From NCBI GenBank assembly GCA_023052935.1, contig CM041292.1:204251799-204315798 (forward strand): DNA of 64,000 nucleotides, given 5' to 3'. Both the position numbers and the translations under genes were made by a program. Every line of letters begins with the position of its first letter. Within the stretch, counting starts at the first letter, position 1. The notes under the pieces are model-generated. The model had not been told where the DNA came from. It worked only from the letters and a program-made list of their open reading frames with translations, and did no database searches. This DNA comes from Piezodorus guildinii. Taxonomy: Eukaryota > Arthropoda > Insecta > Hemiptera > Pentatomidae. Positions 9,201 through 60,573 of this stretch are shown here, one piece after another.

Positions 9201-9539
9201 TAGAAATTTGACCTTCACCTAAAAGAATCTACACCTTATACTAATAATAAATAAATGAAGAACATTGTTGTGATCATTAGATTGTAATGAATGGCGTACC
9301 AGATCGGATTAAACGGAGAATTTTGTGGTAAATAAAGTAAAACAACAACAACAAGAAATCAGATAACTCAATTTGGTCGTTGAGGACAAAAACTATACCA
9401 TCCACTACCTCTACTAGGTAACGTGGCCCAATCTTCCTCAGGAAATTATCTGAATCGTGTTTCGCCTCGAGAGAAGAACAGGCAGGAAGAGCGCTACAGT
9501 TATTCAATATTACAAAATGGCTAAAGAACGAAAATCATA
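9201..9539. other. Low-copy degenerate repeat relative of 29942-30130
   Basis: 9254-9290 (GAACATTGTTGTGATCAT ... GTACCAGATCGGATTAAA) and parts of 9380-9480 resemble 29942-30130 at low identity, so this is an old interspersed repeat of unknown class. No coding signal. Confidence 0.35.
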
Positions 9540-10438
9540 TTGGGTTGATGCAAAATTAATGCAGGTTTCCTCTATTGCAATATCTTAATTCCAATTGTGT
9601 AAACAAAGCTAATCCTAACAGTGATCATTATTATACCAAAACAAATCTTATCTAATACCCTCTCTTTCACCATGAATTTGTTTAGTAAAATCGTTTTGTT
9701 CAGTGTGTTCAAAGGTCTTGAATCGAAAATGTCAAAGTGCGATTTTCGTCAAATTTATTTTTACGAATTTAAATTAGGGCGCAGCGCTGCGCAAACGGCT
9801 CGTAATATTAATGAAGTGTGGGGTCAGGGGGCTATTAATGAGTGCACGGTGCAGCGTTGGTTCCAGAAGTTTCGCAGAGGAGATTTCGACCTCGAAGACA
9901 AGGAAGGTCGGGGCCGTCATCTTGCTCTGGACAACGACCAGCTGAGGTCAAAAGTGGAAGAAGACCCAACCAAAACCACACGAGAAATGGCGGCGGAACT
10001 CGGAACTCAAAAATTGCAACGTCTTTGCCCAGCATTGATGAATCGGAAGGGGCCGATCCTGCTCCACGATAACGCCAGACCACACGTTGCACAACCAACG
10101 CTTCGACGACTGCACGAGTTGGGCTACGAAGTTCTCCAACATCCGCCTTATTCACCTGACCTCTCTCCTACAGACTTCCACTTTTTCAGGCATCTGGACA
10201 ACTTTTTGAGGGAGAAAAATTTTCAAAACCAGGACGACATTGAAAATTCTTTTCGTGATTTCATTGAGTCCAGGGATTCGGATTTTTTTTCTGGTGGAAT
10301 AAGAAAGCTTGTTGAACGTTGGCAAAAGTGCATTGATTCAGATGGAAATTATTTTGATTAAATATATATGGTTAAAGTAAAGATATGGCGTATTTACAAT
10401 ACCTACTAAAAACCTGCATTAATTTTGCATCAACCCAA
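9540..10438 (+). mobile_element. mariner family 2, copy 1 (899 bp, in-frame deletion derivative)
   Basis: Flanked by TA (9538-9539 and 10439-10440). Perfect terminal repeats, TTGGGTTGATGCAAAATTAA at the left and its complement at the right. Contains a single open frame encoding a shortened transposase. A second copy of exactly the same length lies at 59559-60457 on the other strand. Confidence 0.95.
9729..10361 (+). CDS. Internally deleted mariner transposase
   Basis: I place the start at the Met of MSKCDFRQIYFYEF (9729), the usual mariner N-terminus, because the 36 codons before it (open from 9621) are AT-rich 5' sequence. The product would be about 210 residues against about 340-350 for a full transposase. 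The N-terminal DNA-binding region is present (SAAQTARNINEVWGQG, then RWFQKFRRGDFDLEDK). The frame then jumps from REMAAELGT to a QKLQRLCPALMNRKGPI segment, skipping the linker and the first catalytic Asp. The second and third catalytic regions remain (LLHDNARPH; YSPDLSPTDFHFF). The deletion is in frame and identical in the second copy, so this is a mobilised non-autonomous form. It may still bind its own termini but cannot catalyse transposition. Confidence 0.88.
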   Translation: MSKCDFRQIYFYEFKLGRSAAQTARNINEVWGQGAINECTVQRWFQKFRRGDFDLEDKEGRGRHLALDNDQLRSKVEEDPTKTTREMAAELGTQKLQRLCPALMNRKGPILLHDNARPHVAQPTLRRLHELGYEVLQHPPYSPDLSPTDFHFFRHLDNFLREKNFQNQDDIENSFRDFIESRDSDFFSGGIRKLVERWQKCIDSDGNYFD

Positions 10439-10440
10439 TA

Positions 10441-10875
10441 TCTCTGGAACTAAACTGCACTGCCACAGTTTTCCAAGCTTGGTTAAAAATAAAAAACTAA
10501 TCGGCACGTTAAAAATAAACCAGAGACCAGATGAGGTTTACAAGAAGGTCCTTTTTTTGCCCCTCGGGATCCGATAAGAAGGACACCAGATGGTGGGACT
10601 GAGAAGACATTCAGAGGGAGAAGCTGCGGTGCGTGATGCAACAGCGCTCGCTACTTAGCAATTTATGGAAGGGGGGACCCTGATGAACCACCAAATGCGA
10701 TAACTTCTCTAATTTGATATTCACAGGTAACGAGGGATTAGCCACCATCTTATTAATGTAGTCCTCCAACCAACGGATCCCTACCTCCACGTTCCAAGTT
10801 CCAATATCTTGGAAACATTATAAATTAGAGAAATTCATATTTGTCATTACTGTATATGTTTCATAAATATACAAA
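10441..10875. other. Unassigned interval
   Basis: No recognisable coding, repeat or structural feature on either strand. Confidence 0.4.
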
Positions 10876-40470: not shown

Positions 40471-40718
40471 TTATAGTTCCGGGAGCAGAGAACATTCTTT
40501 GACGAACCTAATCAGTGAACTAACTGTTTCACTAGAGTCCTTCAAGCTCTCACTCAACGATCTAGCTAGGTTAAGTTTATCCATTTGTACATGAAATTTG
40601 GGGCAGTTCTCAATTATGTGTTTTATTGAGAGAGGCACTCTACACAAGTCACACATTGGTACGGGCTGCCTGAGGATGAGATGGAGATGTGTGAGCCTGC
40701 TATGTCCGATGCGAAGTC
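40471..40718 (-). pseudogene. LINE C-terminus, 3' part, interrupted by the Polinton
   Basis: The minus strand encodes RIGHSRLTHLHLI, then MCDLCRVPLSIKHIIENCPK and the C-terminus ECSLLPEL*, the post-RNase H Cys/His domain. The frame runs exactly into the insertion point at 40718 and resumes beyond 55697. The A-rich tail lies at 40430-40470. Confidence 0.85.
40713..40718. repeat. Target site duplication, left copy (GAAGTC)
   Basis: Six bases repeated directly at 55692-55697. Six-base duplications are the norm for Polinton/Maverick integration. Confidence 0.93.
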
Positions 40719-40739
40719 AGTAGATAAGAATTGGGCGAG

Positions 40740-41100
40740 CTGGCGCACTTTTTTGAGGAGCCAATCAGATGCCAGCATTTGGTCACGTGACCTATGGCGG
40801 GAGATTTGAATTTGAATTTCGTCCACGACCTAACCTTAACCACGCTGGTTCGCGCCATCAACCTAACCTAAACCATTAAGCCACGCCCCTTTTTAGTCAC
40901 GTGACCCTTCATCAACCTAACCTAAACCAATTGGCCACGCCCCTTTTTGATCACGTGACCCCTGTTTAAGGGTATTAAGTCTTTATAAAGCATGGGTCTA
41001 CCCGGCCGCCATATTGTTTTTATGACGTCATCATTTACAAAGCATGAGTCTACCCGGACGCCATTTTGCTCCCCCACTCCTTCATTAGCTAACCAATCAC
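40740..41100. promoter_or_regulatory. Cluster of palindromic transcription-factor-like sites, left end
   Basis: TCACGTGA occurs three times (40783-40790, 40897-40904, 40951-40958) and TGACGTCA once (41023-41030). CCAAT motifs lie at about 40761 and 41093, CCACGCCCC twice, and GCCGCCATATTG and GACGCCATTTTG (YY1/Pho-like) at 41005-41016 and 41057-41068. Three AACCTAACC-type telomere-like strings are interspersed. Such density is unlike the AT-rich surroundings. I infer a promoter, enhancer or replication-control region at the element terminus. Confidence 0.6.
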
Positions 41101-41160
41101 AGTGCCTAACTTGAGAGTTCCTCCCGGCTAGGTCCGATGGTCAAATTGTAATGTGTGCTT

Positions 41161-42272
41161 TTACGAAACCTTTCAAACTGTGACATAACCTTACTATTGT
41201 TTACATTTTTTGAAACCTCCCTTACTGTTACATAACCTTCTCATTGTTTACATTTTCTGAAACCTCCCTTACTGTTACATAACCTTCCCATTGTTTACAT
41301 TTTATGAAACCTTCCTAACTGTCACATAACCTTCCTATTGTTTACATGTTTGAAACCTCCCTTACTGTTACATAACCTTCTCATTGTTTACATTTTCCTC
41401 AACCTCCCCATTGTTTACATTTTATGAAACCTCCCTTGCTGTTACATAACCTTCCTATAGTTTACATTTTCTGAAACCTCCCTTACTGTTACATAACCTT
41501 CCCATTGTTTACATTTTCTGAAACCTTCCTAACTGTCACATAACCTTCCTATTGTTTACATGTTTGAAACCTCCCTTACTGTTACATAACCTTCCCTATT
41601 TTTACATTTTCCGTAGCCTCCCCATTGTTTACATTTTCTGAAACCTCCCATACTGTCACATAACCTTCCTATTGTTTACATGTTTGAAACCTCCCTTACT
41701 GTTACATAACCTTCTCATTGTTTACATTTTCCTCAACCTCCCCATTGTTTACATTTTCTGAAACCTCCCATACTGTCACATAACCTTCCTATTGTTTACA
41801 TGTTTGAAACCTCCCTTGCTGTTACATAACCTTTCTATTGTTTACATTTTCTGAAACCTCCCATACTGTCACATAACCTTCCTATTGTTTACATGTTTGA
41901 AACCTCCCTTGCTGTTACATAACCTTCCTATTGTTTACATTTTCTGAAACCTCCCATACTGTCACATAACCTTCCTATTGTTTACATGTTTGAAACCTCC
42001 CTTACTGTTACATAACCTTCTCATTGTTTACATTTTCCTCAACCTCCCCATTGTTTACATTTTATGAAACCTCCCTTGCTGTTACATAACCTTCCCATTG
42101 TTTACATTTTATGAAACCTTCCTAACTGTCACATAACCTTCCTATTGCTTACATGTTTGAAACCTCACTTACTGTTACATAACCTTCCCTATTTTTACAT
42201 TTTCCGTAGCCTCCCCATTGTTTACATTTTCTGAAACCTCCCATACTGTTACAAAACCTTTCAAATGTTTAC
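41161..42272. repeat. ~47-bp tandem repeat array, left arm
   Basis: More than twenty units, typically containing GTTTACATTTTCTGAAACCT and CTGTTACATAACCTTCC, in at least two alternating variants (ATTTTCTGAAACC and the shorter ATGTTTGAAACC). Non-coding; the 77-codon plus-strand ORF at its end is translated repeat. Confidence 0.92.
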
Positions 42273-42503
42273 ATTTAATTTCGTATATGCTTACTTTATG
42301 TTCTGAAACTTCCTCTTTGTTTACAAATTCAGAAGCATGTTTAATATTAACATTTTCATTGTTTGTTTACTTTTATTTTCTCCTCATAGTAGCAGAACAC
42401 ACTCAATTTCTAAAGAATCCTCAACAGCGCAGCACCCACTCTACTTCGTAATGTGTCCACCAGAGTGCATCTCTCCGGAATTTTTTATGTTCTCTTTCCA
42501 ATA

Positions 42504-42510
<7 letters not shown>

Positions 42511-42546
<36 letters not shown>
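42511..42546. repeat. (TA)n microsatellite, left arm
   Basis: Differs in length from the right-arm tract (about 53862-53901), one of the few arm differences. Confidence 0.9.
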
Positions 42547-42549
<3 letters not shown>

Positions 42550-42666
42550 TTTAAGTAAGTTTTTTCAGCCGCCATTTTGTTTTATGACGCCACCATTGCA
42601 AAAATTTAAACTGGTATGAACATGTTCAAACAGGTTTGGATCATGTTTAAGCATGTTGATAAGTGA

Positions 42667-42940
42667 AACGTAAACATGGACTTTGAACCCTCTTAACGGC
42701 TTTAATATAAACATCATTATAGGACATCTTAATCCTATACAGCTTTGAACTTTGATCCTTGATCCTACTATTTAAATAGCCATATAAGGTTCCTTAAGCT
42801 TAAACGTAAACATGTACTTTGAACCTTCTTAATGGTTTCAATATAAACATTGTAATAGTGCTTCTTAATCCTACACATATTTGAGCTTTGATACCTTAAT
42901 CCTTTAATTTAAATAGCGATATAGGGTTCCTTAAGCTTTT
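42667..42940. repeat. Two ~135-bp degenerate tandem repeats, left arm
   Basis: Unit 1 starts AAACGTAAACATGGACTTTG at about 42667 and unit 2 AAACGTAAACATGTACTTTG at about 42802. Both run through CTTAATCCTA, ATTTAAATAG and TTCCTTAAGCTT. Confidence 0.75.
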
Positions 42941-43222
42941 AAACTTTGAACGATTAACCTCTTAAGTATCAATATAGATAATGCGCTTTTTTAGAATTAT
43001 GGTTAATCCCCAACAATTTAATCGTAAACAAGCTCAATTTAAGACGTAAACATCAACATTGTACAGAGAATTTATTAATGTACAAATAAACAATAACATA
43101 AAACTTTTATCTACTTCGGACGGATATTTATTTTGTTTAAACATAATAATTTCAACATTTTAAATTGTTTTCGCGCCTCATCAGATCATTTAATACCATT
43201 CACAAGCATTATTTACTTGTAA

Positions 43223-43336
43223 TTAATAATTCTGATCTGTGATTGCACTCACAATTGCCTTAACGATGTCTTCGGGACCGTTCGGCTACTCCCGGCCATC
43301 TTCGGTCTTATATCTCACTCCGTTCAACTTCGCCAT
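43223..43336 (-). pseudogene. Small coding-like relic, left arm
   Basis: A 37-codon frame from ATG (43336) with one internal TAG (codon 17): MAKLNGVRYKTEDGRE, stop, then PNGPEDIVKAIVSAITDQNY and TAA. It is preceded by TTTATTTCTTTAG, a good 3' splice site. Codon-like composition stands out from the AT-rich flanks. I cannot identify it; it might be the last exon of a lost gene. The identical copy is at 53070-53183. Confidence 0.35.
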
Positions 43337-44371
43337 AATCCGGAGTTCTATCTAAAGAAATAAACAATGATAACGTTAATTCCATCGAAGGTAAACTAAC
43401 TTCCTTATCTTCTCTGCATCTAAACATTTGCATTGCATAGTACATCGTAAACATTTTATTAATTTTAGTTATCAGCATTATTAGTAAACAAAGTTTTGTA
43501 CCTTTTTTAGTTCGGCATTAAGCCTTAAGCCTCTTCACCCAGTCAAGGTAAAGGTACATCGAAGAGGTTTTTATTTATTTTTTATTTTACAACGTAATTT
43601 TTACTATAAAATGTATACAAATTAAACGAAAAATTAAAGCTTAATGAAAATCAGAATTCATAAAAACATAAGATATAATCTTCTAACGCAATCAAGAATT
43701 AAATAAAATTTATGATTATAACAAATAAAATCATCTTTTTTTTTTTTTTTTTTTTTTTGTTAATTTACCATTATTAAATGTATTTAAATTTAATTTTACA
43801 CCTGAAAATAAAAATTCTTTCCTGTTAGGATGGTCGGCACGGTGTGGCAATATTTAAAACCATTTAATCTTAAATACTAAACAACAATTTTCATTCTTTT
43901 ATCATTTTTTTCTTTGTGTATTTGAAAGAGAAATATGAGCATGGAATTAACTTTGCTGGGTTATTCTATTCACCTCTCATTCACTCACACATTCAGGTTT
44001 ACAGGTGTTCAAACCATGCCATTGACCTTCATCCAGGGTTTATAGGTGTTCAAACCGTGACAGTGACCCCATTCATTCATGGTGAATAGATTTAAACAAT
44101 TTTTCATTTACTCATACAGATAAAGCCTTAGTTTTGATACTCTGTACTTTTCTCTTTCGAGACATTATGATAAATGAAATGGCTGCCTTGCTGAGAATGC
44201 TTAATTAATTTTAAGAGAGCCAAAATCTTCCAAGATCATTACAGAACAAACATATTGCCACTCCATAAACCACCATTTTTTATTTTATTTTTTTCCACAA
44301 AACGCTAAATACAAACTAAAATGCTTGTAAACTCGCTTTTTGTTTCTTATTATTAAAAAAAACTCTTTATA
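43337..44371. other. Non-coding inner part of left arm
   Basis: AT-rich, with a poly-T run (43738-43758) and a ~40-bp imperfect duplication (GGTTTACAGGTGTTCAAACC and GGTTTATAGGTGTTCAAACC, 43995-44065). Mirrored at 52032-53069. Confidence 0.6.
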
Positions 44372-47300
44372 TTATTTCAATTCATTTAATTTATAATGCC
44401 CATAAGCCAAAGTATTGATTCCGTCTTCTTGTATGTGTCTTTTATCATCAAAAGGTGACAGAGAAACCTTATTTATTTCGGAACTAAAAATATTATGGAG
44501 CTTAGATTGTATCATTTTCATTGGCGTATGCATAATTTCATTTTGAAATAATACTTTTTCATAATCCTTAAAACTAATATATTTATTTAACGAAGATGTT
44601 TTTACGCCTTTAGCACGCTTTTTTACATCGTTTTCCGTCATAATAGCGTACATTTTCGCTCTTAATCCCACATATTTTAAAATTATTTTGGAATTGAGCT
44701 CATCTTTGAACTTTCCTAACTTTTTTTATTTTCTTTAGAATAACATAAATGTGTTTCAGGATAGTCTGAGAAGTCAAAATATTGATTAATTTTTTTCATA
44801 TCTTCATAGGCATCATCTGTTAAGACCCTATAAATAAAGGAATCTGTATCGGTATACATCATCTTCAAGGTTTTTCCAGAATATTTTGTCATCATTATGT
44901 CATAATGAAATTGATACATAACCGTTTTGGATAAGTCTAAAATACACATTCCTATGTATATAGGTTTATTAAACAAGACTCTCGATTTTTCCATGTGAAC
45001 AGCCACTATATTCTCATTGTAGATTGTACGGTCAATGAAATTTGGTTTAGCAACAAGTTTCATCAACTTTTTACTGTCAGTTACTAGTTGAATATTCTGG
45101 CGGTTCCTGATATTTTCCATCGTTTTACCGAAAACTGCATTGTTAAGCAACTTATAAAAATCTTTTTCAAAATCGTTGGATGCTCCTTTCCTTAGCTCTG
45201 TATTGTATTCTATATACGATCGTAGCCATGGTGCTTGGTCAAACTTTAGAACACGGTGAATTTTTTCCAATTTTAGCCCATGCTGTAGAGCTTGAATCAA
45301 ATTTTTATAATTTAAGACGTAGCGATTTCTTTTTCCAAAATGTGTTATTAATTTTTTTGAATTAGCTTTTGCTCCCGGTGGAATCATCGCTTCAGGTAAG
45401 AACGGTAAATCATCATGGTAATGATGAAGTTCTTGAGGATAACTGACGTAAATTTCAAATATGTAACCAATTTCGTCATCATCCTTAAGCTTGGATATGT
45501 TTATACGTTCCGGATTTTTAACCCATTCAAATCCTCCGTATGGTAAATACATGCTCATCGCTTGTCCATAAAGATTATTAGCATCTAAATAAATTATATA
45601 ACTCGATTCTTCGTTTGGATTAAAATTACTCATGTACTTATTATTCGCTTCTGCATACCTGTGTGATACCTGACACAAACCTCCACGAATACCGTGTTCT
45701 ATCGTTAAAACCATATCATAATCCTGTAATAGCTCTATATTCATTTTTGTATATTTTAACATGGCATCAAAGGTCAAACCGGGAACAGTGAAATAATGAG
45801 CTGGATCAAGTTTATGCGTCTTGATCATGACATCTCGGAAAGATTCGAAGACGTCACAAAGTAGAAGAACATCAGTCTTAACGTACACATCAGCATAATC
45901 TCCCAAAGATTGGCAATTAAAGTGTCCCCATATGTTTTGAGCGTGTTTATAATCTTCTACGCTAATGTCGCTCTCATTCAATTTATTGTAAAAGTCTTCA
46001 ATTGATGGTAACTCTGTTTCATTGAACTTTTCTTCATTGTCTATATAATCATATGGAAACACACCTTTTCTGGTAACCAATTTTAATTCCTCATCTTTAT
46101 AATATTTAGATGTCTCCTGGAATTTGTCCAAAGAAAGAGATTTTACAAGATAGTCCAGGCTTCTAGGCATGAATCTGTAAGAATCTATAAACCTCAGTTT
46201 CAGTATACCAACATGCTTTGTGAAGGATATGTATTTTTCTTCACTATTCGGTATTACCTCAACTTCTCCAGGGGTATTTCCCAATTCTCTAACTATAAAA
46301 TGTGCGTCATAATTGCTCAAGTTGTGCATTATGACAGGTACAAACGAGGGATTAACGCGTTTTAAATTACAATTATTACACGAAGCTCCTAAGTACGTTC
46401 CGGTTATATGGCAGTGGTCTCTAACTTTTATGTTGTTTTCTTTAAATTCGTCTTGGCACATGTAACAGGTTTTAGCTTCAGCCCAATTTTTTTCTTCATC
46501 CGATGAGATCCGCATTGGTTTGTTCATCTTATAGATTTCTTGAATTTTTTTAGCAATATTGGAAATATACTCCATGAAGTGATAAGCGGCATTGGCCCCC
46601 CTATAAACGTACGGTTTTTTTATTGGGACGTCTACTCCCTCGATCCCTTTAACATATACACAAAATGATATCGGATCGTGCCTCTGATATTTAGTCGTGT
46701 TCTTTGACGATTCGTTTATAGGAACTAACATCGATTCAAAGTCAGCATAGATAACAAACGGTACTTTGCTTTGTCGTTCCACATTTGAAAATCTGATAAA
46801 GTGATCTTTCGTCGGCAGCTCTATTCTTACTGGTTTATTTTCAGAGCAGTATATCTTGTGTTCTTCAAGTTTCTCGCTAGCTTTTTTTCCATAGAGGTTG
46901 TTAAAATGTGTAAAGCAGCGTTTGCAAATCGTCAATTTATGTTCATATTGGCTGAGTTGAGACACAACTAATCTTTCAAAGTTTTTTATGTAAATATAAT
47001 GCGAAGTCTTATCATCGGATATAAGTAAAAGATCTCGGTGGTCTTTCAATTCTGTTTTACAGACTTTCAGTGGATATATTTTTTCTTTTTCATCCAGCCC
47101 ATAAACATTGATGGAGACATTATTTGTCTTTTCAAAGTTCCTTATTTCGCTTAGAGATGTCGGGAACGAAACGCAACTAAAGTCATATTTATGTTCTAAA
47201 TTATCATATTTAGTAACGCGTTGAGCATTCTTTTTCACAAATTTTGCTAAAATGGAATACTTGAAACAATAAATATCATTATTCTGTACATTAATGCAAG

Positions 47301-47616
47301 CTTTCTTTGATTCTATCGATGGCGGAAGAGGAAGATAGGTGCAGCCCCTTAGTGGCAAATATTTATTGATTCGTAATCTGATTCCATCAACTCCACTCAG
47401 CTTCCATCCACTTTTTTTAAATTGAGACTCTTCTGCTTCAGTTATAATTTTGTTAAAACTTTTCTCGATAAATTTGTTAAGATCGCTACCCTTAAACACA
47501 CATTTATTTCGTGTTTTGAATGCTTTATCCGTCTGATCACCAACAGAATTTGTAAAAGTACATTCCAATAGGCAGTTCACTTTCAATGCGCCATGTTCAT
47601 GTAGTGAATCTCGAAT
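44372..47616 (-). pseudogene. polB: Polinton family B DNA polymerase, left copy: N-terminus deleted, core open
   Basis: The minus-strand frame is open from the deletion junction (47613-47617) to TAG at 44716, then continues after a frameshift as a 99-codon C-terminal piece (44671-44372). All palm motifs are in one frame here: exonuclease motifs (YADFES; HNLSNYDAHF; YVKTD), motif A (YLDANNLYGQAM), motif B (NNAVFGKT) and motif C (YTDTDS). Compared with the right arm it lacks the start codon, both N-terminal zinc fingers and about 120 residues, removed by a 455-bp deletion with AATTC at the junction. No in-frame ATG lies near the new 5' edge (a TAG precedes it), so a start at the 47586 TTG is an ORF-calling artefact. 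One amino-acid difference from the right copy was noticed (Ile for Lys in the segment before LRFIDS). The remaining core may be intact, but it has no proper start. Confidence 0.9.
44721..44727 (-). other. A7 run at the shared PolB frameshift, left copy
   Basis: AAA AAA AGT TAG in the 0 frame; a -1 shift at the run restores a frame that leads into GKFKDELNSKII and the C-terminal domain. Present identically in the right arm at 51676-51682. Confidence 0.6.
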
Positions 47617-47617
47617 T

Positions 47618-47856
47618 ATCTACTAGTTTAAAATTAACGGAAACAATTTTTCTATAAAACTTAAATAATATAAAAATATCTATGGCACCAAGAAATTAGC
47701 AAATATTTTTAAACTCAGATAGCAGCAACAGCAACAAATCAGTGTGTTCTCTTTGAAGTCTGAAGCTAAAATGACAGCAAATACAAATGACAAGTAACTC
47801 CTTAACTATCAGCTGTTGCTTACCCCCACCACCTTCAATTATACCCCCTCTCCCTC
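47618..47856. other. Innermost part of left arm
   Basis: Non-coding sequence matching 48030-48336 of the right arm, but with one G-rich repeat unit where the right has four. Confidence 0.8.
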
Positions 47857-48029
47857 CCCTCCTACCCTTGTAGTGCATCCGAGGATACCCAACTCAAGTT
47901 ATGGATATCACTCTAATTACGGGTAGAATGAGATGGTCAGAAGTGGTTAAGAGTAATCAAGGAGAGTCGGAGAGGTTCACATGTAAGGATGATATTATAT
48001 ATTATGTATATATTATATATTATTATATA
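47857..48029. other. Central 173-bp spacer (loop of the palindrome)
   Basis: The only sequence of the element present once. The left two thirds has mixed composition (CATCCGAGGATACCCAACTC ... GGTTCACATGTAAGGATG); the right end is TA-rich (about 47990-48029). No open frame. It lies between the two outward-facing polymerase genes, so it could hold a bidirectional promoter, or simply mark where the inverted copies were joined. Confidence 0.85.
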
Positions 48030-48030
48030 G

Positions 48031-48130
48031 AGGGAGAGGGGGTATAATTGAAGGTGGTGGGGGTAAAATACGTGGTGGTGGGGGTAAAATTGAAGGTAGT
48101 AGGGGTAAAACGGAAGATGGTGGGGGTAAG
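48031..48130 (+). repeat. G-rich 21-bp tandem repeat, four units (right arm)
   Basis: Units of the type TAAAATTGAAGGTGGTGGGGG (here 20-21 bases), preceded by GAGGGAGAGGGGG. Runs of G spaced this closely could form a G-quadruplex. The left arm keeps only one unit. Located about 300 bp upstream of the polymerase start. Confidence 0.8.
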
Positions 48131-48354
48131 CAACAGCTGATAGTTAAGGAGTTACTTGTCATTTGTATTTGCTGTCATTTTAGCTTCAGACTTCAAAGAG
48201 AACACACTGATTTGTTGCTGTTGCTGCTATCTGAGTTTAAAAATATTTGCTAATTTCTTGGTGCCATAGATATTTTTATATTATTTAAGTTTTATAGAAA
48301 AATTGTTTCCGTTAATTTTAAACTAGTAGATAATTCTCCATTTGTTCACGGAAG

Positions 48355-48399
48355 GTAAGTTGTGTGCATAAATAAATTATTAAATTTATCTTCGTTCAG
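48355..48399 (+). other. Possible 45-bp 5' UTR intron of PolB
   Basis: AAG then GTAAGT at 48355, and TTCGTTCAG ending at 48399, 25 bp before the start codon. The splice signals are good but 45 bp is very short for an animal intron. Confidence 0.25.
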
Positions 48400-48424
48400 A
48401 AATTTTAAAATTTAACACTTAAAA

Positions 48425-51400
48425 ATGAGCCAGTTTAAATGTTACCTTTGCGGTAATACGTATGAGTATTTGAAGAGCCTTCGTAGACATGAAAAATCTT
48501 GTAACGGTAATTCGACTTATACTTGCACCACGTGTGGGGGTGTTTTTCCAAATATTTATAACGGTAAAAGACATGAAAATGTATGTACCCAGGAACCGTT
48601 GATTAAAATATTAAAATTATCTGAGCCACAAAAGAATGCCATTTTAGCACTCGTACCAGACAAGCAGGGACTTTTTGAGTATGAGACAGCATTTCAAAAC
48701 CGATTGGCATCATTCTTCATCAGATCGTTCGATTCTATGGATATTAACTCGTTTCTGGAAAGTGTTAAGAACCTCTTAGTGTATAAAATTCGAGATTCAC
48801 TACATGAACATGGCGCATTGAAAGTGAACTGCCTATTGGAATGTACTTTTACAAATTCTGTTGGTGATCAGACGGATAAAGCATTCAAAACACGAAATAA
48901 ATGTGTGTTTAAGGGTAGCGATCTTAACAAATTTATCGAGAAAAGTTTTAACAAAATTATAACTGAAGCAGAAGAGTCTCAATTTAAAAAAAGTGGATGG
49001 AAGCTGAGTGGAGTTGATGGAATCAGATTACGAATCAATAAATATTTGCCACTAAGGGGCTGCACCTATCTTCCTCTTCCGCCATCGATAGAATCAAAGA
49101 AAGCTTGCATTAATGTACAGAATAATGATATTTATTGTTTCAAGTATTCCATTTTAGCAAAATTTGTGAAAAAGAATGCTCAACGCGTTACTAAATATGA
49201 TAATTTAGAACATAAATATGACTTTAGTTGCGTTTCGTTCCCGACATCTCTAAGCGAAATAAGGAACTTTGAAAAGACAAATAATGTCTCCATCAATGTT
49301 TATGGGCTGGATGAAAAAGAAAAAATATATCCACTGAAAGTCTGTAAAACAGAATTGAAAGACCACCGAGATCTTTTACTTATATCCGATGATAAGACTT
49401 CGCATTATATTTACATAAAAAACTTTGAAAGATTAGTTGTGTCTCAACTCAGCCAATATGAACATAAATTGACGATTTGCAAACGCTGCTTTACACATTT
49501 TAACAACCTCTATGGAAAAAAAGCTAGCGAGAAACTTGAAGAACACAAGATATACTGCTCTGAAAATAAACCAGTAAGAATAGAGCTGCCGACGAAAGAT
49601 CACTTTATCAGATTTTCAAATGTGGAACGACAAAGCAAAGTACCGTTTGTTATCTATGCTGACTTTGAATCGATGTTAGTTCCTATAAACGAATCGTCAA
49701 AGAACACGACTAAATATCAGAGGCACGATCCGATATCATTTTGTGTATATGTTAAAGGGATCGAGGGAGTAGACGTCCCAATAAAAAAACCGTACGTTTA
49801 TAGGGGGGCCAATGCCGCTTATCACTTCATGGAGTATATTTCCAATATTGCTAAAAAAATTCAAGAAATCTATAAGATGAACAAACCAATGCGGATCTCA
49901 TCGGATGAAGAAAAAAATTGGGCTGAAGCTAAAACCTGTTACATGTGCCAAGACGAATTTAAAGAAAACAACATAAAAGTTAGAGACCACTGCCATATAA
50001 CCGGAACGTACTTAGGAGCTTCGTGTAATAATTGTAATTTAAAACGCGTTAATCCCTCGTTTGTACCTGTCATAATGCACAACTTGAGCAATTATGACGC
50101 ACATTTTATAGTTAGAGAATTGGGAAATACCCCTGGAGAAGTTGAGGTAATACCGAATAGTGAAGAAAAATACATATCCTTCACAAAGCATGTTGGTAAA
50201 CTGAAACTGAGGTTTATAGATTCTTACAGATTCATGCCTAGAAGCCTGGACTATCTTGTAAAATCTCTTTCTTTGGACAAATTCCAGGAGACATCTAAAT
50301 ATTATAAAGATGAGGAATTAAAATTGGTTACCAGAAAAGGTGTGTTTCCATATGATTATATAGACAATGAAGAAAAGTTCAATGAAACAGAGTTACCATC
50401 AATTGAAGACTTTTACAATAAATTGAATGAGAGCGACATTAGCGTAGAAGATTATAAACACGCTCAAAACATATGGGGACACTTTAATTGCCAATCTTTG
50501 GGAGATTATGCTGATGTGTACGTTAAGACTGATGTTCTTCTACTTTGTGACGTCTTCGAATCTTTCCGAGATGTCATGATCAAGACGCATAAACTTGATC
50601 CAGCTCATTATTTCACTGTTCCCGGTTTGACCTTTGATGCCATGTTAAAATATACAAAAATGAATATAGAGCTATTACAGGATTATGATATGGTTTTAAC
50701 GATAGAACACGGTATTCGTGGAGGTTTGTGTCAGGTATCACACAGGTATGCAGAAGCGAATAATAAGTACATGAGTAATTTTAATCCAAACGAAGAATCG
50801 AGTTATATAATTTATTTAGATGCTAATAATCTTTATGGACAAGCGATGAGCATGTATTTACCATACGGAGGATTTGAATGGGTTAAAAATCCGGAACGTA
50901 TAAACATATCCAAGCTTAAGGATGATGACGAAATTGGTTACATATTTGAAATTTACGTCAGTTATCCTCAAGAACTTCATCATTACCATGATGATTTACC
51001 GTTCTTACCTGAAGCGATGATTCCACCGGGAGCAAAAGCTAATTCAAAAAAATTAATAACACATTTTGGAAAAAGAATCGCTACGTCTTAAATTATAAAA
51101 ATTTGATTCAAGCTCTACAGCATGGGCTAAAATTGGAAAAAATTCACCGTGTTCTAAAGTTTGACCAAGCACCATGGCTACGATCGTATATAGAATACAA
51201 TACAGAGCTAAGGAAAGGAGCATCCAACGATTTTGAAAAAGATTTTTATAAGTTGCTTAACAATGCAGTTTTCGGTAAAACGATGGAAAATATCAGGAAC
51301 CGCCAGAATATTCAACTAGTAACTGACAGTAAAAAGTTGATGAAACTTGTTGCTAAACCAAATTTCATTGACCGTACAATCTACAATGAGAATATAGTGG

Positions 51401-52031
51401 CTGTTCACATGGAAAAATCGAGAGTCTTGTTTAATAAACCTATATACATAGGAATGTGTATTTTAGACTTATCCAAAACGGTTATGTATCAATTTCATTA
51501 TGACATAATGATGACAAAATATTCTGGAAAAACCTTGAAGATGATGTATACCGATACAGATTCCTTTATTTATAGGGTCTTAACAGATGATGCCTATGAA
51601 GATATGAAAAAAATTAATCAATATTTTGACTTCTCAGACTATCCTGAAACACATTTATGTTATTCTAAAGAAAATAAAAAAAGTTAGGAAAGTTCAAAGA
51701 TGAGCTCAATTCCAAAATAATTTTAAAATATGTGGGATTAAGAGCGAAAATGTACGCTATTATGACGGAAAACGATGTAAAAAAGCGTGCTAAAGGCGTA
51801 AAAACATCTTCGTTAAATAAATATATTAGTTTTAAGGATTATGAAAAAGTATTATTTCAAAATGAAATTATGCATACGCCAATGAAAATGATACAATCTA
51901 AGCTCCATAATATTTTTAGTTCCGAAATAAATAAGGTTTCTCTGTCACCTTTTGATGATAAAAGACACATACAAGAAGACGGAATCAATACTTTGGCTTA
52001 TGGGCATTATAAATTAAATGAATTGAAATAA
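48425..52031 (+). pseudogene. polB: Polinton protein-primed family B DNA polymerase, right copy: N-terminus intact, frameshifted
   Basis: ATG at 48425 (A at -3), frame open to 51091 (888 codons), then 51103-51687 and 51732-52031 in other frames; about 1,190 codons in all. Residues 6-26 and 34-54 are two Cys2HisCys zinc fingers (C6,C9,H22,C26; C34,C37,H50,C54), with a third at C352/C355/H374/C378. Exonuclease: D413/E415 in YADFES, D558 in HNLSNYDAHF, Y699/D703 in YVKTD. A Cys/His cluster like the endonuclease VII fold (C505,C508,H522,H524,C534,C537) lies between ExoI and ExoII. Motif A D799 in YLDANNLY; motif B and motif C (YTDTDS) lie in the 51103-51687 frame. The enzyme would copy linear DNA from a protein primer. 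A 1-bp loss at about 51075-51077 (AA where the left copy has AAA) breaks the frame between motifs A and B, and a second shift at the A7 run (51676-51682) is shared with the left copy. Confidence 0.92.
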
Positions 52032-53069
52032 TATAAAGAGTTTTTTTTAATAATAAGAAACAAAAAGCGAGTTTACAAGCATTTTAGTTTGTATTTAGCG
52101 TTTTGTGGAAAAAAATAAAATAAAAAATGGTGGTTTATGGAGTGGCAATATGTTTGTTCTGTAATGATCTTGGAAGATTTTGGCTCTCTTAAAATTAATT
52201 AAGCATTCTCAGCAAGGCAGCCATTTCATTTATCATAATGTCTCGAAAGAGAAAAGTACAGAGTATCAAAACTAAGGCTTTATCTGTATGAGTAAATGAA
52301 AAATTGTTTAAATCTATTCACCATGAATGAATGGGGTCACTGTCACGGTTTGAACACCTATAAACCCTGGATGAAGGTCAATGGCATGGTTTGAACACCT
52401 GTAAACCTGAATGTGTGAGTGAATGAGAGGTGAATAGAATAACCCAGCAAAGTTAATTCCATGCTCATATTTCTCTTTCAAATACACAAAGAAAAAAATG
52501 ATAAAAGAATGAAAATTGTTGTTTAGTATTTAAGATTAAATGGTTTTAAATATTGCCACACCGTGCCGACCATCCTAACAGGAAAGAATTTTTATTTTCA
52601 GGTGTAAAATTAAATTTAAATACATTTAATAATGGTAAATTAACAAAAAAAAAAAAAAAAAAAAAAAAAAGATGATTTTATTTGTTATAATCATAAATTT
52701 TATTTAATTCTTGATTGCGTTAGAAGATTATATCTTATGTTTTTATGAATTCTGATTTTCATTAAGCTTTAATTTTTCGTTTAATTTGTATACATTTTAT
52801 AGTAAAAATTACGTTGTAAAATAAAAAATAAATAAAAACCTCTTCGATGTACCTTTACCTTGACTGGGTGAAGAGGCTTAAGGCTTAATGCCGAACTAAA
52901 AAAGGTACAAAACTTTGTTTACTAATAATGCTGATAACTAAAATTAATAAAATGTTTACGATGTACTATGCAATGCAAATGTTTAGATGCAGAGAAGATA
53001 AGGAAGTTAGTTTACCTTCGATGGAATTAACGTTATCATTGTTTATTTCTTTAGATAGAACTCCGGATT
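52032..53069. other. Non-coding inner part of right arm
   Basis: Mirror of 43337-44371: AT-rich with a long A-run at 52647-52670. Confidence 0.6.
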
Positions 53070-53183
53070 ATGGCGAAGTTGAACGGAGTGAGATATAAGA
53101 CCGAAGATGGCCGGGAGTAGCCGAACGGTCCCGAAGACATCGTTAAGGCAATTGTGAGTGCAATCACAGATCAGAATTATTAA
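53070..53183 (+). pseudogene. Small coding-like relic, right arm
   Basis: Same 37-codon frame with TAG at 53118-53120 and TAA at 53181-53183, after a TTTATTTCTTTAG splice-acceptor-like string (53042-53054). Identical in frame and stop to 43223-43336. Function unknown. Confidence 0.35.
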
Positions 53184-53465
53184 TTACAAGTAAATAATGC
53201 TTGTGAATGGTATTAAATGATCTGATGAGGCGCGAAAACAATTTAAAATGTTGAAATTATTATGTTTAAACAAAATAAATATCCGTCCGAAGTAGATAAA
53301 AGTTTTATGTTATTGTTTATTTGTACATTAATAAATTCTCTGTACAATGTTGATGTTTACGTCTTAAATTGAGCTTGTTTACGATTAAATTGTTGGGGAT
53401 TAACCATAATTCTAAAAAAGCGCATTATCTATATTGATACTTAAGAGGTTAATCGTTCAAAGTTT

Positions 53466-53739
53466 AAAAGCTTAAGGAACCCTATATCGCTATTTAAATT
53501 AAAGGATTAAGGTATCAAAGCTCAAATATGTGTAGGATTAAGAAGCACTATTACAATGTTTATATTGAAACCATTAAGAAGGTTCAAAGTACATGTTTAC
53601 GTTTAAGCTTAAGGAACCTTATATGGCTATTTAAATAGTAGGATCAAGGATCAAAGTTCAAAGCTGTATAGGATTAAGATGTCCTATAATGATGTTTATA
53701 TTAAAGCCGTTAAGAGGGTTCAAAGTCCATGTTTACGTT
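53466..53739. repeat. Two ~135-bp degenerate tandem repeats, right arm
   Basis: Mirror image of 42667-42940. Confidence 0.75.
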
Positions 53740-53856
53740 TCACTTATCAACATGCTTAAACATGATCCAAACCTGTTTGAACATGTTCATACCAGTTTAA
53801 ATTTTTGCAATGGTGGCGTCATAAAACAAAATGGCGGCTGAAAAAACTTACTTAAA

Positions 53857-53861
<5 letters not shown>

Positions 53862-53901
<40 letters not shown>
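53862..53901. repeat. (TA)n microsatellite, right arm
   Basis: Counterpart of 42511-42546, slightly different in length. Confidence 0.9.
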
Positions 53902-53906
<5 letters not shown>

Positions 53907-54137
53907 TATTGGAAAGAGAACATAAAAAATTCCGGAGAGATGCACTCTGGTGGACACATTACGAAGTAGAGTGGGTGCTGCGCTGTTGAGGATTCTTTAG
54001 AAATTGAGTGTGTTCTGCTACTATGAGGAGAAAATAAAAGTAAACAAACAATGAAAATGTTAATATTAAACATGCTTCTGAATTTGTAAACAAAGAGGAA
54101 GTTTCAGAACATAAAGTAAGCATATACGAAATTAAAT

Positions 54138-55249
54138 GTAAACATTTGAAAGGTTTTGTAACAGTATGGGAGGTTTCAGAAAATGTAAACAATGGGGAGG
54201 CTACGGAAAATGTAAAAATAGGGAAGGTTATGTAACAGTAAGTGAGGTTTCAAACATGTAAGCAATAGGAAGGTTATGTGACAGTTAGGAAGGTTTCATA
54301 AAATGTAAACAATGGGAAGGTTATGTAACAGCAAGGGAGGTTTCATAAAATGTAAACAATGGGGAGGTTGAGGAAAATGTAAACAATGAGAAGGTTATGT
54401 AACAGTAAGGGAGGTTTCAAACATGTAAACAATAGGAAGGTTATGTGACAGTATGGGAGGTTTCAGAAAATGTAAACAATAGGAAGGTTATGTAACAGCA
54501 AGGGAGGTTTCAAACATGTAAACAATAGGAAGGTTATGTGACAGTATGGGAGGTTTCAGAAAATGTAAACAATAGAAAGGTTATGTAACAGCAAGGGAGG
54601 TTTCAAACATGTAAACAATAGGAAGGTTATGTGACAGTATGGGAGGTTTCAGAAAATGTAAACAATGGGGAGGTTGAGGAAAATGTAAACAATGAGAAGG
54701 TTATGTAACAGTAAGGGAGGTTTCAAACATGTAAACAATAGGAAGGTTATGTGACAGTATGGGAGGTTTCAGAAAATGTAAACAATGGGGAGGCTACGGA
54801 AAATGTAAAAATAGGGAAGGTTATGTAACAGTAAGGGAGGTTTCAAACATGTAAACAATAGGAAGGTTATGTGACAGTTAGGAAGGTTTCAGAAAATGTA
54901 AACAATGGGAAGGTTATGTAACAGTAAGGGAGGTTTCAGAAAATGTAAACTATAGGAAGGTTATGTAACAGCAAGGGAGGTTTCATAAAATGTAAACAAT
55001 GGGGAGGTTGAGGAAAATGTAAACAATGAGAAGGTTATGTAACAGTAAGGGAGGTTTCAAACATGTAAACAATAGGAAGGTTATGTGACAGTTAGGAAGG
55101 TTTCATAAAATGTAAACAATGGGAAGGTTATGTAACAGTAAGGGAGGTTTCAGAAAATGTAAACAATGAGAAGGTTATGTAACAGTAAGGGAGGTTTCAA
55201 AAAATGTAAACAATAGTAAGGTTATGTCACAGTTTGAAAGGTTTCGTAA
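54138..55249. repeat. ~47-bp tandem repeat array, right arm
   Basis: Mirror of 41161-42272 with the same order of variant units (for example the single unit with GTAAGCAATAGG). The two arrays have the same length, since coordinates of mirrored bases sum to 96410 on both sides. Confidence 0.92.
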
Positions 55250-55309
55250 AAGCACACATTACAATTTGACCATCGGACCTAGCCGGGAGGAACTCTCAAG
55301 TTAGGCACT

Positions 55310-55670
55310 GTGATTGGTTAGCTAATGAAGGAGTGGGGGAGCAAAATGGCGTCCGGGTAGACTCATGCTTTGTAAATGATGACGTCATAAAAACAATATG
55401 GCGGCCGGGTAGACCCATGCTTTATAAAGACTTAATACCCTTAAACAGGGGTCACGTGATCAAAAAGGGGCGTGGCCAATTGGTTTAGGTTAGGTTGATG
55501 AAGGGTCACGTGACTAAAAAGGGGCGTGGCTTAATGGTTTAGGTTAGGTTGATGGCGCGAACCAGCGTGGTTAAGGTTAGGTCGTGGACGAAATTCAAAT
55601 TCAAATCTCCCGCCATAGGTCACGTGACCAAATGCTGGCATCTGATTGGCTCCTCAAAAAAGTGCGCCAG
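55310..55670. promoter_or_regulatory. Cluster of palindromic transcription-factor-like sites, right end
   Basis: TCACGTGA at 55452-55459, 55506-55513 and 55620-55627; TGACGTCA at 55380-55387; mirrored CCAAT, GGGGCGTGG and AAAATGGCGTC/CAATATGGCGGC motifs. Confidence 0.6.
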
Positions 55671-55691
55671 CTCGCCCAATTCTTATCTACT

Positions 55692-55697
55692 GAAGTC
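55692..55697. repeat. Target site duplication, right copy (GAAGTC)
   Basis: Direct repeat of 40713-40718. Confidence 0.93.
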
Positions 55698-55960
55698 TCG
55701 CCAAAGCAGTTTCCTCGCGGCGATTACTTCGCAATGATGTATTCCATGGATCAGGCGATTGCTTGATATTTCTTAATTTATTGGTGTTGTCAAGTTCCGA
55801 CCACATCTTTTGTTTTGTATATATGTATGTTGTATAATTAGTTTTGTATATATCGTGTGAATGTTGTACGTTATCACTATTAAAAATGTCCTGAATTGGA
55901 CAGATTGTAATATTGCTCAATAAAGAATTGTTTCTAATAAAAAAAATATAATACATTTGT
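55692..55960 (-). pseudogene. LINE, upstream part interrupted by the Polinton
   Basis: The minus strand encodes KMWSELDNTNKLRNIKQSP, DPWNTSLRSNRREETALARL and, at the junction, the codons that connect in frame to RIGHSRLTH at 40700. This is the segment between RNase H and the Cys/His C-terminus of an I/Jockey-superfamily LINE. Upstream it becomes AT-rich and unrecognisable beyond about 55960. Confidence 0.85.
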
Positions 55961-56447
55961 TTTCAATAAAATGATTTTATATCTAAATGGTCGAGATTTG
56001 AAAATAAATAAATCCTTTGACAACAAAATTCAAATGGCACTAACGTTTTTAAAAGTTGATGCTTTTTTAAAAAATCATTTTAAAAAAGTTCTAAAAAAAC
56101 TCACTGATTGATCAGAAGGGTCCTAAACAATTTTAATTTTTCAGACTTAGATATTTGTCATTGTCGATCGCGAAATATATTTTCATCCATCATTAAGAGC
56201 TTTTTTTCTATGAGCAATTATAACACTTTTTTTTATTAAAATTTAACCCTAGTCGAAATTTCGATGTAATTGCTCTAAGCGACAGCAACAATTTTAGTTT
56301 GTTAAATTGGGTCAAATAAACCTCATCTAATTTGTGCCGTATTTTAACGAAAACTGCTTAACTATCTTAACGAAATAAAATCATATCATGAACTCTGATT
56401 TTTTTTTTCACAAACAAAACTAAACTAAAGCTCTTTTTAAATCTGGT
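55961..56447. other. Unassigned AT-rich interval
   Basis: No gene or repeat recognised. Confidence 0.4.
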
Positions 56448-58693: not shown

Positions 58694-59557
58694 ATGTTCT
58701 TGTATTCTAATTTAATTTCGAATATATCATAAATATAACACTGGTTATTTCTCCATAATTGATTTAACACCGATACGCTGAAAATAAAGAGAAAAAAGAT
58801 TTGTCGAATTTTCTCGCCCGATATAACTGCTATCATAAAGGCAGCAAGTTACAAATTCAAATATCCATGTTTTACGACTTAACCAACTCACAAACTTTAC
58901 CATTTATTTATTAATTTACCTTTTCCAAACATTCGAAGAAGTTGAGAGTGGAATTCGCAAGTACTTTCATTACCGAGGAGTGCCTTCAACCGAGTCATTC
59001 TTTAACAAACTGAACTTTCGAAGGGAGAGAGCAACTTTCAATATGGATAATGGAAAATTCGGAATGTTTGCTTCATGAGTCGGTTAAAAATGACTTACTG
59101 ATTCCTCCATTAGCGGGAGAAATTGCTGGAAATCCAGGTGAATCATTGATGAATACGGGCAGGTAACGTTTCGAAAGACCAACAATATGGTGTTGCTAAG
59201 GTAAGTAAACAAGTGCTGGAACAATAGAAAAGTATTGGAAATGCCATGCCTGAATGCGTAAAGTAGATCTGATGGAGCGGAACAATACAAATAAATTATA
59301 ACACGATAGGTATCCCATTTGTATTTTTTTTTTCAGTTTCCACTCGCCTAAAATACGCCTTGATTGTTGTTGCCAGCGGGGTCGTCCTAGGGATCTCCGT
59401 ACGCTGTGCCTCAAAGCTGAGCTGATTCGTAGGACTTGTTTCTTGATATTAATTTATGTTTTGCAGAACAGATAAATTGTAGTCAGAAACAACATAAATC
59501 AAATAAATGAATAATTAGTATAATAAGTTATATCTGGTACAAGAAAAAGGTTAAGGT
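58694..59557. other. Unassigned interval
   Basis: Some less AT-rich stretches (59340-59440) but no recognisable coding or repeat signal. Confidence 0.4.
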
Positions 59558-59558
59558 A

Positions 59559-60457
59559 TTGGGTTGATGCAAAATTAATGCAGGTTTTTAGTAGGTATTG
59601 TAAATACGCCATATCTTTACTTTAACCATATATATTTAATCAAAATAATTTCCATCTGAATCAATGCACTTTTGCCAACGTTCAACAAGCTTTCTTATTC
59701 CACCAGAAAAAAAATCCGAATCCCTGGACTCAATGAAATCACGAAAAGAATTTTCAATGTCGTCCTGGTTTTGAAAATTTTTCTCCCTCAAAAAGTTGTC
59801 CAGATGCCTGAAAAAGTGGAAGTCTGTAGGAGAGAGGTCAGGTGAATAAGGCGGGTGTTGGAGAACTTCGTAGCCCAACTCGTGCAGTCGTCGAAGCGTT
59901 GGTTGTGCAACGTGTGGTTTGGCGTTATCGTGGAGCAGGATCGGCCCCTTCCGATTCATCAATGCTGGGCAAAGACGTTGCAATTTTTGAGTTCCGAGTT
60001 CCGCCGCCATTTCTCGTGTGGTTTTGGTTGGGTCTTCTTCCACTTTTGACCTCAGCTGGTCGTTGTCCAGAGCAAGATGACGGCCCCGACCTTCCTTGTC
60101 TTCGAGGTCGAAATCTCCTCTGCGAAACTTCTGGAACCAACGCTGCACCGTGCACTCATTAATATCCCCCTGACCCCACACTTCATTAATATTACGAGCC
60201 GTTTGCGCAGCGCTGCGCCCTAATTTAAATTCGTAAAAATAAATTTGACGAAAATCGCACTTTGACATTTTCGATTCAAGACCTTTGAACACACTGAACA
60301 AAACGATTTTACTAAACAAATTCATGGTGAAAGAGAGGGTATTAGATAAGGTTTGTTTTGGTATAATAATGATCAATGTTAGGATTAGCTTTGTTTACAC
60401 AATTGGAATTAAGATATTGCAATAGAGGAAACCTGCATTAATTTTGCATCAACCCAA
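59559..60457 (-). mobile_element. mariner family 2, copy 2 (899 bp)
   Basis: TA-flanked (59557-59558 and 60458-60459); the same terminal repeats and exactly the same length as 9540-10438, in opposite orientation. Confidence 0.95.
59636..60268 (-). CDS. Internally deleted mariner transposase, second copy
   Basis: Start at the Met of MSKCDFRQIYFYEF (60268). Same in-frame deletion joining REMAAELGT to QKLQRLCPAL as the first copy. Noticed amino-acid differences in the coding part are Asp for Ala in GQGDINE and Lys for Arg in HDNAKPH. Retains the DNA-binding half and the last two catalytic regions; not expected to be catalytic. Confidence 0.88.
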   Translation of the reverse strand: MSKCDFRQIYFYEFKLGRSAAQTARNINEVWGQGDINECTVQRWFQKFRRGDFDLEDKEGRGRHLALDNDQLRSKVEEDPTKTTREMAAELGTQKLQRLCPALMNRKGPILLHDNAKPHVAQPTLRRLHELGYEVLQHPPYSPDLSPTDFHFFRHLDNFLREKNFQNQDDIENSFRDFIESRDSDFFSGGIRKLVERWQKCIDSDGNYFD

Positions 60458-60573
60458 TACAAAGGTAAGATAATATCAATCACAATATTAGGTAATAAAC
60501 ACTTTTGGATCCACACCGTTCCAACTGTTATATAAAAACCATATGTTTTTCTCTTATTAGTCTTATCAATGAA

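Follow-up and report, generated by a model that had tools for sequence, protein, structure and literature searches.

A fold-back class of Polinton is present in the genome of Piezodorus guildinii, in two complementary kinds, one carrying a DNA polymerase (Pol) gene in each half and the other an integrase and capsid gene in each half. We describe it starting from a palindromic Polinton-related element, two inverted arms plus a spacer, at positions 40719-55691 of a 64,000-nucleotide stretch (C1:204251799-204315798 of a 1.2-Gb assembly in 434 contigs), which we call the window and from whose first letter its positions are counted. The family to which this element belongs is multi-copy, with some centres inherited, rather than one defective genome; about thirty palindromes were seen in the genome. 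At a probability of roughly 80%, we read the window element as one insertion of a multi-copy palindromic Polinton family that is re-made by fold-back copying during protein-primed replication and is likely inserted by the integrase of other Polintons; the replication route, the helper integrase and a hairpin form of the element we infer.

As the initial annotation had claimed, the window element consists of two inverted arms (left, 40719-47856, forward strand; right, 48030-55691, reverse strand) around a 173-nt single-copy spacer (47857-48029, no strand), with a 6-bp target-site duplication (TSD), GAAGTC, immediately outside on the left (40713-40718) and right (55692-55697) and with AG-type termini. 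The left terminus, AGTAGATAAG (40719-40728, forward), recurs inverted at the right end (55682-55691, reverse). When 40719-47612 is set against 48792-55691 (6.9 kb), the only differences between the two arms are a single substitution, a 1-bp indel and two changes in microsatellite length, so the near-identity of the halves stands. The spacer, however, is off the geometric centre, because the left arm lacks two pieces near the centre, a 455-bp stretch of the right arm (48337-48791, forward), which includes the polymerase start and zinc finger, and 63 bp made up of three 21-bp units. The spacer itself is partly arm sequence found in both arms of longer relatives. Because of the 6.9-kb arms and the same form in all ten of the paired relatives that we fetched, chance is excluded and the palindrome is real.

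Those relatives came from a genome search with a terminal query, which gave at least 77 matches (the best 40 of 879 candidates were scored, making the count a lower bound), many of them as inverted pairs 10-20 kb apart. By eye we counted 14 inverted pairs of termini besides the window. The initial annotation had proposed a search of the rest of the assembly for other palindromic copies, and each of the ten pairs fetched (E1-E10) is palindromic, with a longest inverted stretch of 3.8-7.7 kb at 98.0-99.9% identity and with divergently oriented Pol copies in both arms, some truncated. Exact 6-bp TSDs and AGTAGA ends are found in 11 of 11 polymerase palindromes, the window included, and the same ends occur on an ordinary Polinton, FL1, described below. 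Read from the flanks, the TSDs of the ten are GTTGTC, GTCTGA, TATATT, ACGAAA, TATAGA, AAACAA, TATATT, AGTCAT, CATATG and GTTGGT. A separate search with the polymerase, for which the best 47 of 1034 candidates were scored, placed 26 of those 47 matches by eye in 13 divergent pairs; small pieces were then inspected at pair centres (15) or beside unpaired matches (5 of 21), and 16 of these 20 have an inverted centre. The window, the ten fetched copies and the 16 pieces bring the polymerase palindromes to 27, with TSDs read for 11. In the window element and the ten fetched copies the inverted repeat spans the whole element, instead of forming terminal inverted repeats (TIRs) round a unique block of genes. 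Two loci deserve separate mention. At C3:171.04 and C3:171.10 Mb, two palindromes 60 kb apart have the same 217-nt centre in opposite orientation, either a twin insertion or an inverted duplication of the locus. At C3:149.31 Mb (L047), the other arm has no polymerase and runs into outer-arm sequence, leaving one polymerase between two arm ends.

The main gene of each arm encodes a family B DNA polymerase (PolB) with an endonuclease VII-type insert, reading outward in both arms. In the window, both copies are broken. The left one consists of a main piece of 967 aa (44716-47619, reverse), which contains the insert and PolB motifs assigned by eye and has lost its start codon and zinc finger, and a C-terminal piece in a different frame (44372-44725, reverse). 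The right one has an N-terminal piece of 891 open codons (48416-51091, forward; first ATG at 48425) with a C2H2 zinc finger, a weak match below the Pfam cut-off, followed by a middle piece beyond a 1-bp frame change of its own (51043-51687, forward) and a C-terminal piece (51678-52031, forward) beyond a second frame change that is the same as the left arm's. That shared frame change points to a polymerase that was broken before the window arms were last made alike. We take exonuclease and polymerase motifs to be recognizable by eye in the protein, whose best match is 79% to a Halyomorpha halys protein and which matches the adintovirus PolB P0024 at 47%; by its sequence it is a Polinton-type PolB, predicted to be protein-primed. 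A Pfam scan of the window's long open reading frames (ORFs) returned PolB-related domains only, no search aimed at foldback-type transposases having been made, and searches of phages and of IMG/VR with the window Pol found nothing. An alignment yielded two Polinton-like contigs and one short match. Across the aligned N-terminal part of the polymerases, one Cys and one His (C238 and H327) are invariant, and these could belong to a putative vOTU-like protease domain; in Polinton polymerases, a structural study (PMC11071308) places two domains ahead of the polymerase, one a terminal protein and the other a vOTU-like protease.

Other copies of the gene are intact. The left halves of E7, E8 and E10 have open polymerase frames of 1,202 codons, as does the right half of E7; the right halves of E8 and E10 have shorter pieces. 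Between subfamilies, synonymous divergence (dS) in Pol is 0.23-0.39 and the ratio of nonsynonymous to synonymous rates (dN/dS) is 0.137-0.152 in five of six pairs; the sixth pair, the near-identical E8 and E10, gives 0.72 on 8 changes and is little informative. These ratios indicate that Pol is kept under purifying selection in some copies. Within the arms of E7, E8 and E10, the frames listed besides Pol and pieces of it are at most 104 aa long; a 181-aa frame in E10 runs over the right element end into the flank. The polymerases of E1 and E4 retain only the last part, from about codon 373 (E1) or 1029 (E4) of the reference, yet both elements have TSDs, and for this reason mobilization in trans is likely for these two.

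The second kind of palindrome emerged when the genome was searched with a Polinton integrase taken from IMG/VR (contig L049). With the best 129 of 2728 candidates scored, this search found many 312-aa integrase frames in the genome and, by eye, five divergent pairs among those listed; we fetched two of these whole (I1 and I2) and three at their centres. The arms of I2 are 7.1 kb long and 99.87% identical, and each carries ORFs of 169, 411, 153, 309 and 318 aa, all reading outward. The 309-aa ORF is the integrase, with a chromodomain match below the Pfam cut-off, the 411-aa ORF is a double-jelly-roll (DJR) capsid protein (E 4e-118), and the 153-aa ORF has a weak likeness to a cysteine protease (E 0.001). 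TSDs are present in three of the four integrase-type palindromes examined (GATATT for I2, TATCTG and ATAACT for two more); the right end of the fourth, I1, was not found. A search with the capsid family (best 126 of 157 candidates scored) gave at least 128 matches, a number that includes separate pieces of one gene; about 10 divergent pairs were counted by eye and the rest are unpaired; none of 14 control genomes matched. Six unpaired integrase loci were followed: five continue through the ATPase gene with no fold-back in 3.4 kb, and one folds back inside the ATPase gene.

FL1 is an ordinary Polinton of 15,646 bp (C3:171944599-171960244; TSD ATTAGC). Its terminal repeat is 1,351 bp long or longer, at 99.0% identity, and one strand carries, in this order, Pol, ATPase, integrase, capsid and the 169-aa ORF. 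Aligned with FL1's right half, I2 shows 97-99% identity in its gene-bearing part and, in blocks, 88% in the terminal minisatellite part. The integrase-type palindromes are thus the doubled right half of an FL1-type Polinton, and parent and fold-back derivatives lie in one genome. The initial annotation's term, a foldback class of Polinton, thus suits what we find, palindromes of both types with 6-bp TSDs beside an ordinary Polinton. Its proposal of a snap-back origin is supported as well, and more strongly than a single copy would allow, by the co-occurrence of an ordinary Polinton with fold-back derivatives; it needs correction in that this is a multi-copy family and not a one-off defective genome. 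Two further loci touch on the variety of Polintons here. At C2:7.54-7.56 Mb (L068/L069) lies a second Polinton family, FL2, with a DJR capsid protein in a 405-aa frame, a Pol at 41%, and related ORFs (162 and 230 aa) inverted on either side; its element ends were not found. At C4:147061682-147065697, two divergent copies of a 405-aa capsid frame lie 2 kb from each other, in what may be a third kind of palindrome.

We mapped 18 palindrome centres, integrase-type centres against FL1 and polymerase-type centres against sister arms only. Junctions could be resolved in 12 of the 18, with a single-copy span of 0-658 nt and either 2-11 nt of microhomology or 3-7 extra nt. All six integrase-type junctions are resolved, with spans of 107, 14, 441, 658, 220 and 133 nt; the first, second and fourth have microhomologies of 5, 11 and 5 nt and the other three have 5-7 extra nt. 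Six of the 12 polymerase-type junctions are resolved, with spans of 51, 20, 0, 58, 215 and 58 nt; four of them have microhomologies of 6, 5, 5 and 2 nt, and the remaining two have 3 or 5 extra nt.

Some centres have also been passed on between copies, and the arms change together. Five copies have one identical 46-nt loop; E10 and the copy at C4:30.4 have the same loop, from which that of E8 differs by 1 base. Loops of different subfamilies look related, part of the score coming from shared stem sequence, and common descent of the centre across subfamilies seems likely. In a comparison of E8 with E10 over the ~7.35-kb arm, 94 of the columns with substitutions changed in both arms together, 6 differ in a single arm and 0 are arm-linked; among gap columns the counts are 172 in both arms, 8 in a single arm, 0 arm-linked and 2 mixed. 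Within the 300-bp flanks of the five-copy group, two copies have substitutions, of which 2 of 3 and 1 of 2 are found in both arms and none is arm-linked. A 1,173-nt stretch of the polymerase, missing from E4, was used for a tree, from which one short arm of E9 had been excluded in advance. The arms are sisters there in seven of nine elements: the window, E1, E2, E3, E7, E8 and E10.

Concerted change alone cannot tell such templating from gene conversion, a process known between the arms of Y-chromosome palindromes, and the arms could instead have been kept identical by conversion in the chromosome after insertion, the palindrome being copied as an ordinary double-stranded element. We consider this unlikely. 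Some copies have drifted apart: in E6 the longest inverted stretch has 112 mismatches between the arms (98.0% identity), which argues against rapid conversion within the chromosome, although E6 may be recombinant. Private arm differences also persist in E8 and E10, and conversion leaves unexplained both the 12 different resolved fold-back points and the presence of palindromes beside an ordinary parent. In E6 itself (L019 and L020; C4:160.89 Mb), the arms are not each other's closest relatives and their differences are clustered, as in an old or a recombinant copy.

A second alternative is that one old palindrome was inherited and that the centres differ only through central deletions after insertion. 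In its favour, some centres are shared between copies, and the window centre, with its 455-bp deletion in the left arm, resembles a one-sided deletion of an E8-like centre. For the family as a whole we think it quite improbable. The fold-back points of E1, E3, E4 and E6 are about 0.5-3.6 kb away from the usual centre, at the polymerase gene or within it, and in each the two endpoints agree within 0-58 nt; such agreement would rarely come from independent random deletions, and a strand switching onto itself gives it naturally. The integrase-type palindromes, moreover, have a non-palindromic parent in the same genome.

An assembly or library artefact, whether from fold-back reads or from a collapsed ordinary Polinton, was rejected as very improbable. 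The case does rest on assembled sequence and not on reads, but the flanks are not inverted and are joined by exact TSDs in 11 of 11 palindromes, the arms carry private differences, and five of the six unpaired integrase loci in the same assembly are unfolded, one of them followed to both ends. In the window, moreover, the flanks joined without the element give one open frame of 170 aa across the empty site. A chance one-off, a single defective genome that integrated, would fit the two broken window polymerases and has next to no probability given the copies found, since ten of ten fetched paired relatives are palindromic and the subfamilies stand at the dS values given above with purifying selection on Pol.

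How the two kinds of palindrome relate to each other and to FL1 bears on where the integrase comes from. Their outer arm parts are homologous, 70-94% in blocks, and one integrase could therefore serve both. Only the polymerase end of a Polinton, twice, had been read in the window, and each of its arms does contain a polymerase and no integrase, capsid or protease-like match: queries with the integrase, protease-like and capsid ORFs of I2 found nothing in either of the window arms or in any of 20 polymerase-type halves; control pieces from I1 and FL1 did match. The 318-aa ORF of I2 gave only chance-level matches in the polymerase-type halves (E 0.4-1), and no packaging ATPase was matched in polymerase palindromes, for which the only query was the distant one from L049. 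At other loci the same genome does have integrase genes with matching ends, so supply of integrase in trans to the polymerase palindromes, which the initial annotation had also supposed, is likely.

The 169-aa ORF, the outermost gene of FL1's right end, links the two kinds further. Its C-terminal part is matched just past the end of Pol in 20 of 20 polymerase-type halves and in both window arms (E 1e-16 to 1e-6), where pieces of residues 99-169 remain at 44076-44284 (reverse) and 52119-52327 (forward). The polymerase arm thus reads as an FL1-type capsid-side end, with the tail of the outermost gene, plus the outward-reading polymerase of another lineage. This tail behind the polymerase is a trace of how the polymerase and the capsid-side end became joined. 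The initial annotation had proposed looking for a full-length Polinton matching one arm at its polymerase side; an ordinary Polinton exists, but it is its capsid-side end, not its polymerase side, that the window arms resemble. We rejected the idea that the window is FL1's polymerase end, as FL1's Pol shares 48% identity with the reference Pol (P0001) and has the opposite orientation, reading inward from the other end. FL2 was dropped as a parent on its Pol identity.

Several points weigh against our interpretation. FL1's Pol is of a different lineage from that of the polymerase palindromes, and their direct parent, an ordinary element with this chimeric layout, was not found among the genome loci examined. 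Six of the 18 centres, the window's included, cannot be reduced to a simple junction, having extra or diverged sequence there, and the long spacers (E5, E9, L056 and L057) and the window centre would fit one-sided chromosomal deletion equally well. Of the 20 small pieces at or beside polymerase copies, four have no inverted centre (L039, L042, L045 and L047). The arms are not sisters in two of the nine elements in the tree, E6 (40 of 1173 differences) and E5 (41 of 1150), and 78 of the 94 concerted columns fall in the first 1,150 columns, on the minisatellite side, leaving 16 in the rest; gene conversion in place could mimic part of the concerted change. Finally, the palindromes are known here from assembled sequence, and the replication intermediate itself is a deduction from it.

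With these points in mind, fold-back copying would run as follows. Protein-primed synthesis from an AGTAGA end, expected from the Pol family, would displace a single strand. The growing strand would then switch template to its own strand, in many cases where there is a short microhomology, and copy back to the end from which it started, giving two identical arms round a short single-copy loop; the junctions are what we see of this presumed switch. Each side of the product would have an origin and an end for the integrase, so that the whole could be replicated and inserted as a unit, presumably by an integrase acting in trans, and the TSDs record such insertions. In the polymerase lineage, the palindrome would have become hereditary. 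Several of its copies have a common junction, and the two arms of a copy show the same new mutations, which makes it likely that every cycle goes through one arm only, for example in a putative hairpin molecule. A bolder reading, which we offer tentatively and with somewhat more doubt than conviction, is that what was once a defective snap-back genome has become the normal, hereditary form of the lineage: a self-complementary hairpin of 7 kb. What is inherited would be the single arm, every insertion would consist of such an arm with its fresh mirror copy, and the whole would be one half of a two-part system with the integrase/capsid/protease palindromes.

The remaining features of the window can be listed briefly. 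Subterminal minisatellites occupy 41156-42276 in the left arm, with periods from 27 bp to 167 bp, 47 bp being prominent, and 54134-55258 in the right arm (no strand for either). A 21-bp G-rich minisatellite adjoins the spacer at 48038-48129 (forward), the right copy being 3 units longer than the left arm's. The 170-aa frame of the joined flanks, by eye presumably the RNase H tail of a Jockey-like retrotransposon, is split by the insertion into a downstream part (40471-40716, reverse) and an upstream part (55687-55962, reverse). Two inverted copies ~50 kb apart and 99.3% identical flank the palindrome at 9538-10443 and 59554-60459, and we take them to be mariner-like.

To our knowledge, protein-primed replication of Polintons has been deduced from sequence rather than observed. 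The elements described here share AG-type ends, 6-bp TSDs and a Polinton-type PolB with Polintons/Mavericks (adintovirus-like), an ordinary copy with matching ends being present in this genome; they differ in that the inverted repeat is the whole element and the polymerase alone is encoded, twice. Intact vertebrate Mavericks, in the portion of PMC8097293 consulted, have 6-bp TSDs, lengths of 12.7-24.6 kb and TIRs of 46-1,447 bp with a mean of 402, against at least 1,351 bp for FL1. Among the matches listed in open-access literature, judged by titles and the starts of abstracts, there was no description of palindromic Polintons. Foldback elements (FB, Galileo) differ from ours, in which each arm carries a PolB and the TSD is 6 bp; Galileo is placed in the P-element superfamily by its transposase. 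Like our polymerase palindromes, the Bidnaviridae have a Polinton-type protein-primed PolB, Polinton-derived in viruses with a bipartite genome according to the parts of PMC4061559 and PMC11071308 consulted; they differ in being single-stranded insect viruses of parvovirus-like ancestry, and the portions of the literature examined describe no integrated palindromes for them.

Close precedents are the snap-back genomes of protein-primed replicons, in which one genome end is doubled round a short unique loop with an origin on both sides. The symmetric recombinants of adenovirus are defective genomes of this kind, and Vierula and Bertrand, cited in PMC11071308, reportedly described in 1992, to go by the title, a hairpin-forming derivative of kalilo, a protein-primed plasmid. 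A literature search for such precedents gave nothing usable among the matches listed. Our palindromes likewise have one end doubled round a single-copy loop, in six of six integrase-type centres judged against FL1 and six of 12 polymerase-type centres judged against sister arms. They differ from the precedents in being integrated with TSDs, multi-copy, and partly inherited in their junctions, with some polymerases intact under purifying selection.

Fold-back junctions beside an ordinary parent, together with arms that change together, would amount to a genomic record of strand switching in replication. If the arms are identical at birth, their divergence would date each insertion, as it does for long terminal repeats. 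The system is an example of a lasting transposon family that grew out of derivatives of a virus-like element, self-complementary and likely dependent on a helper.

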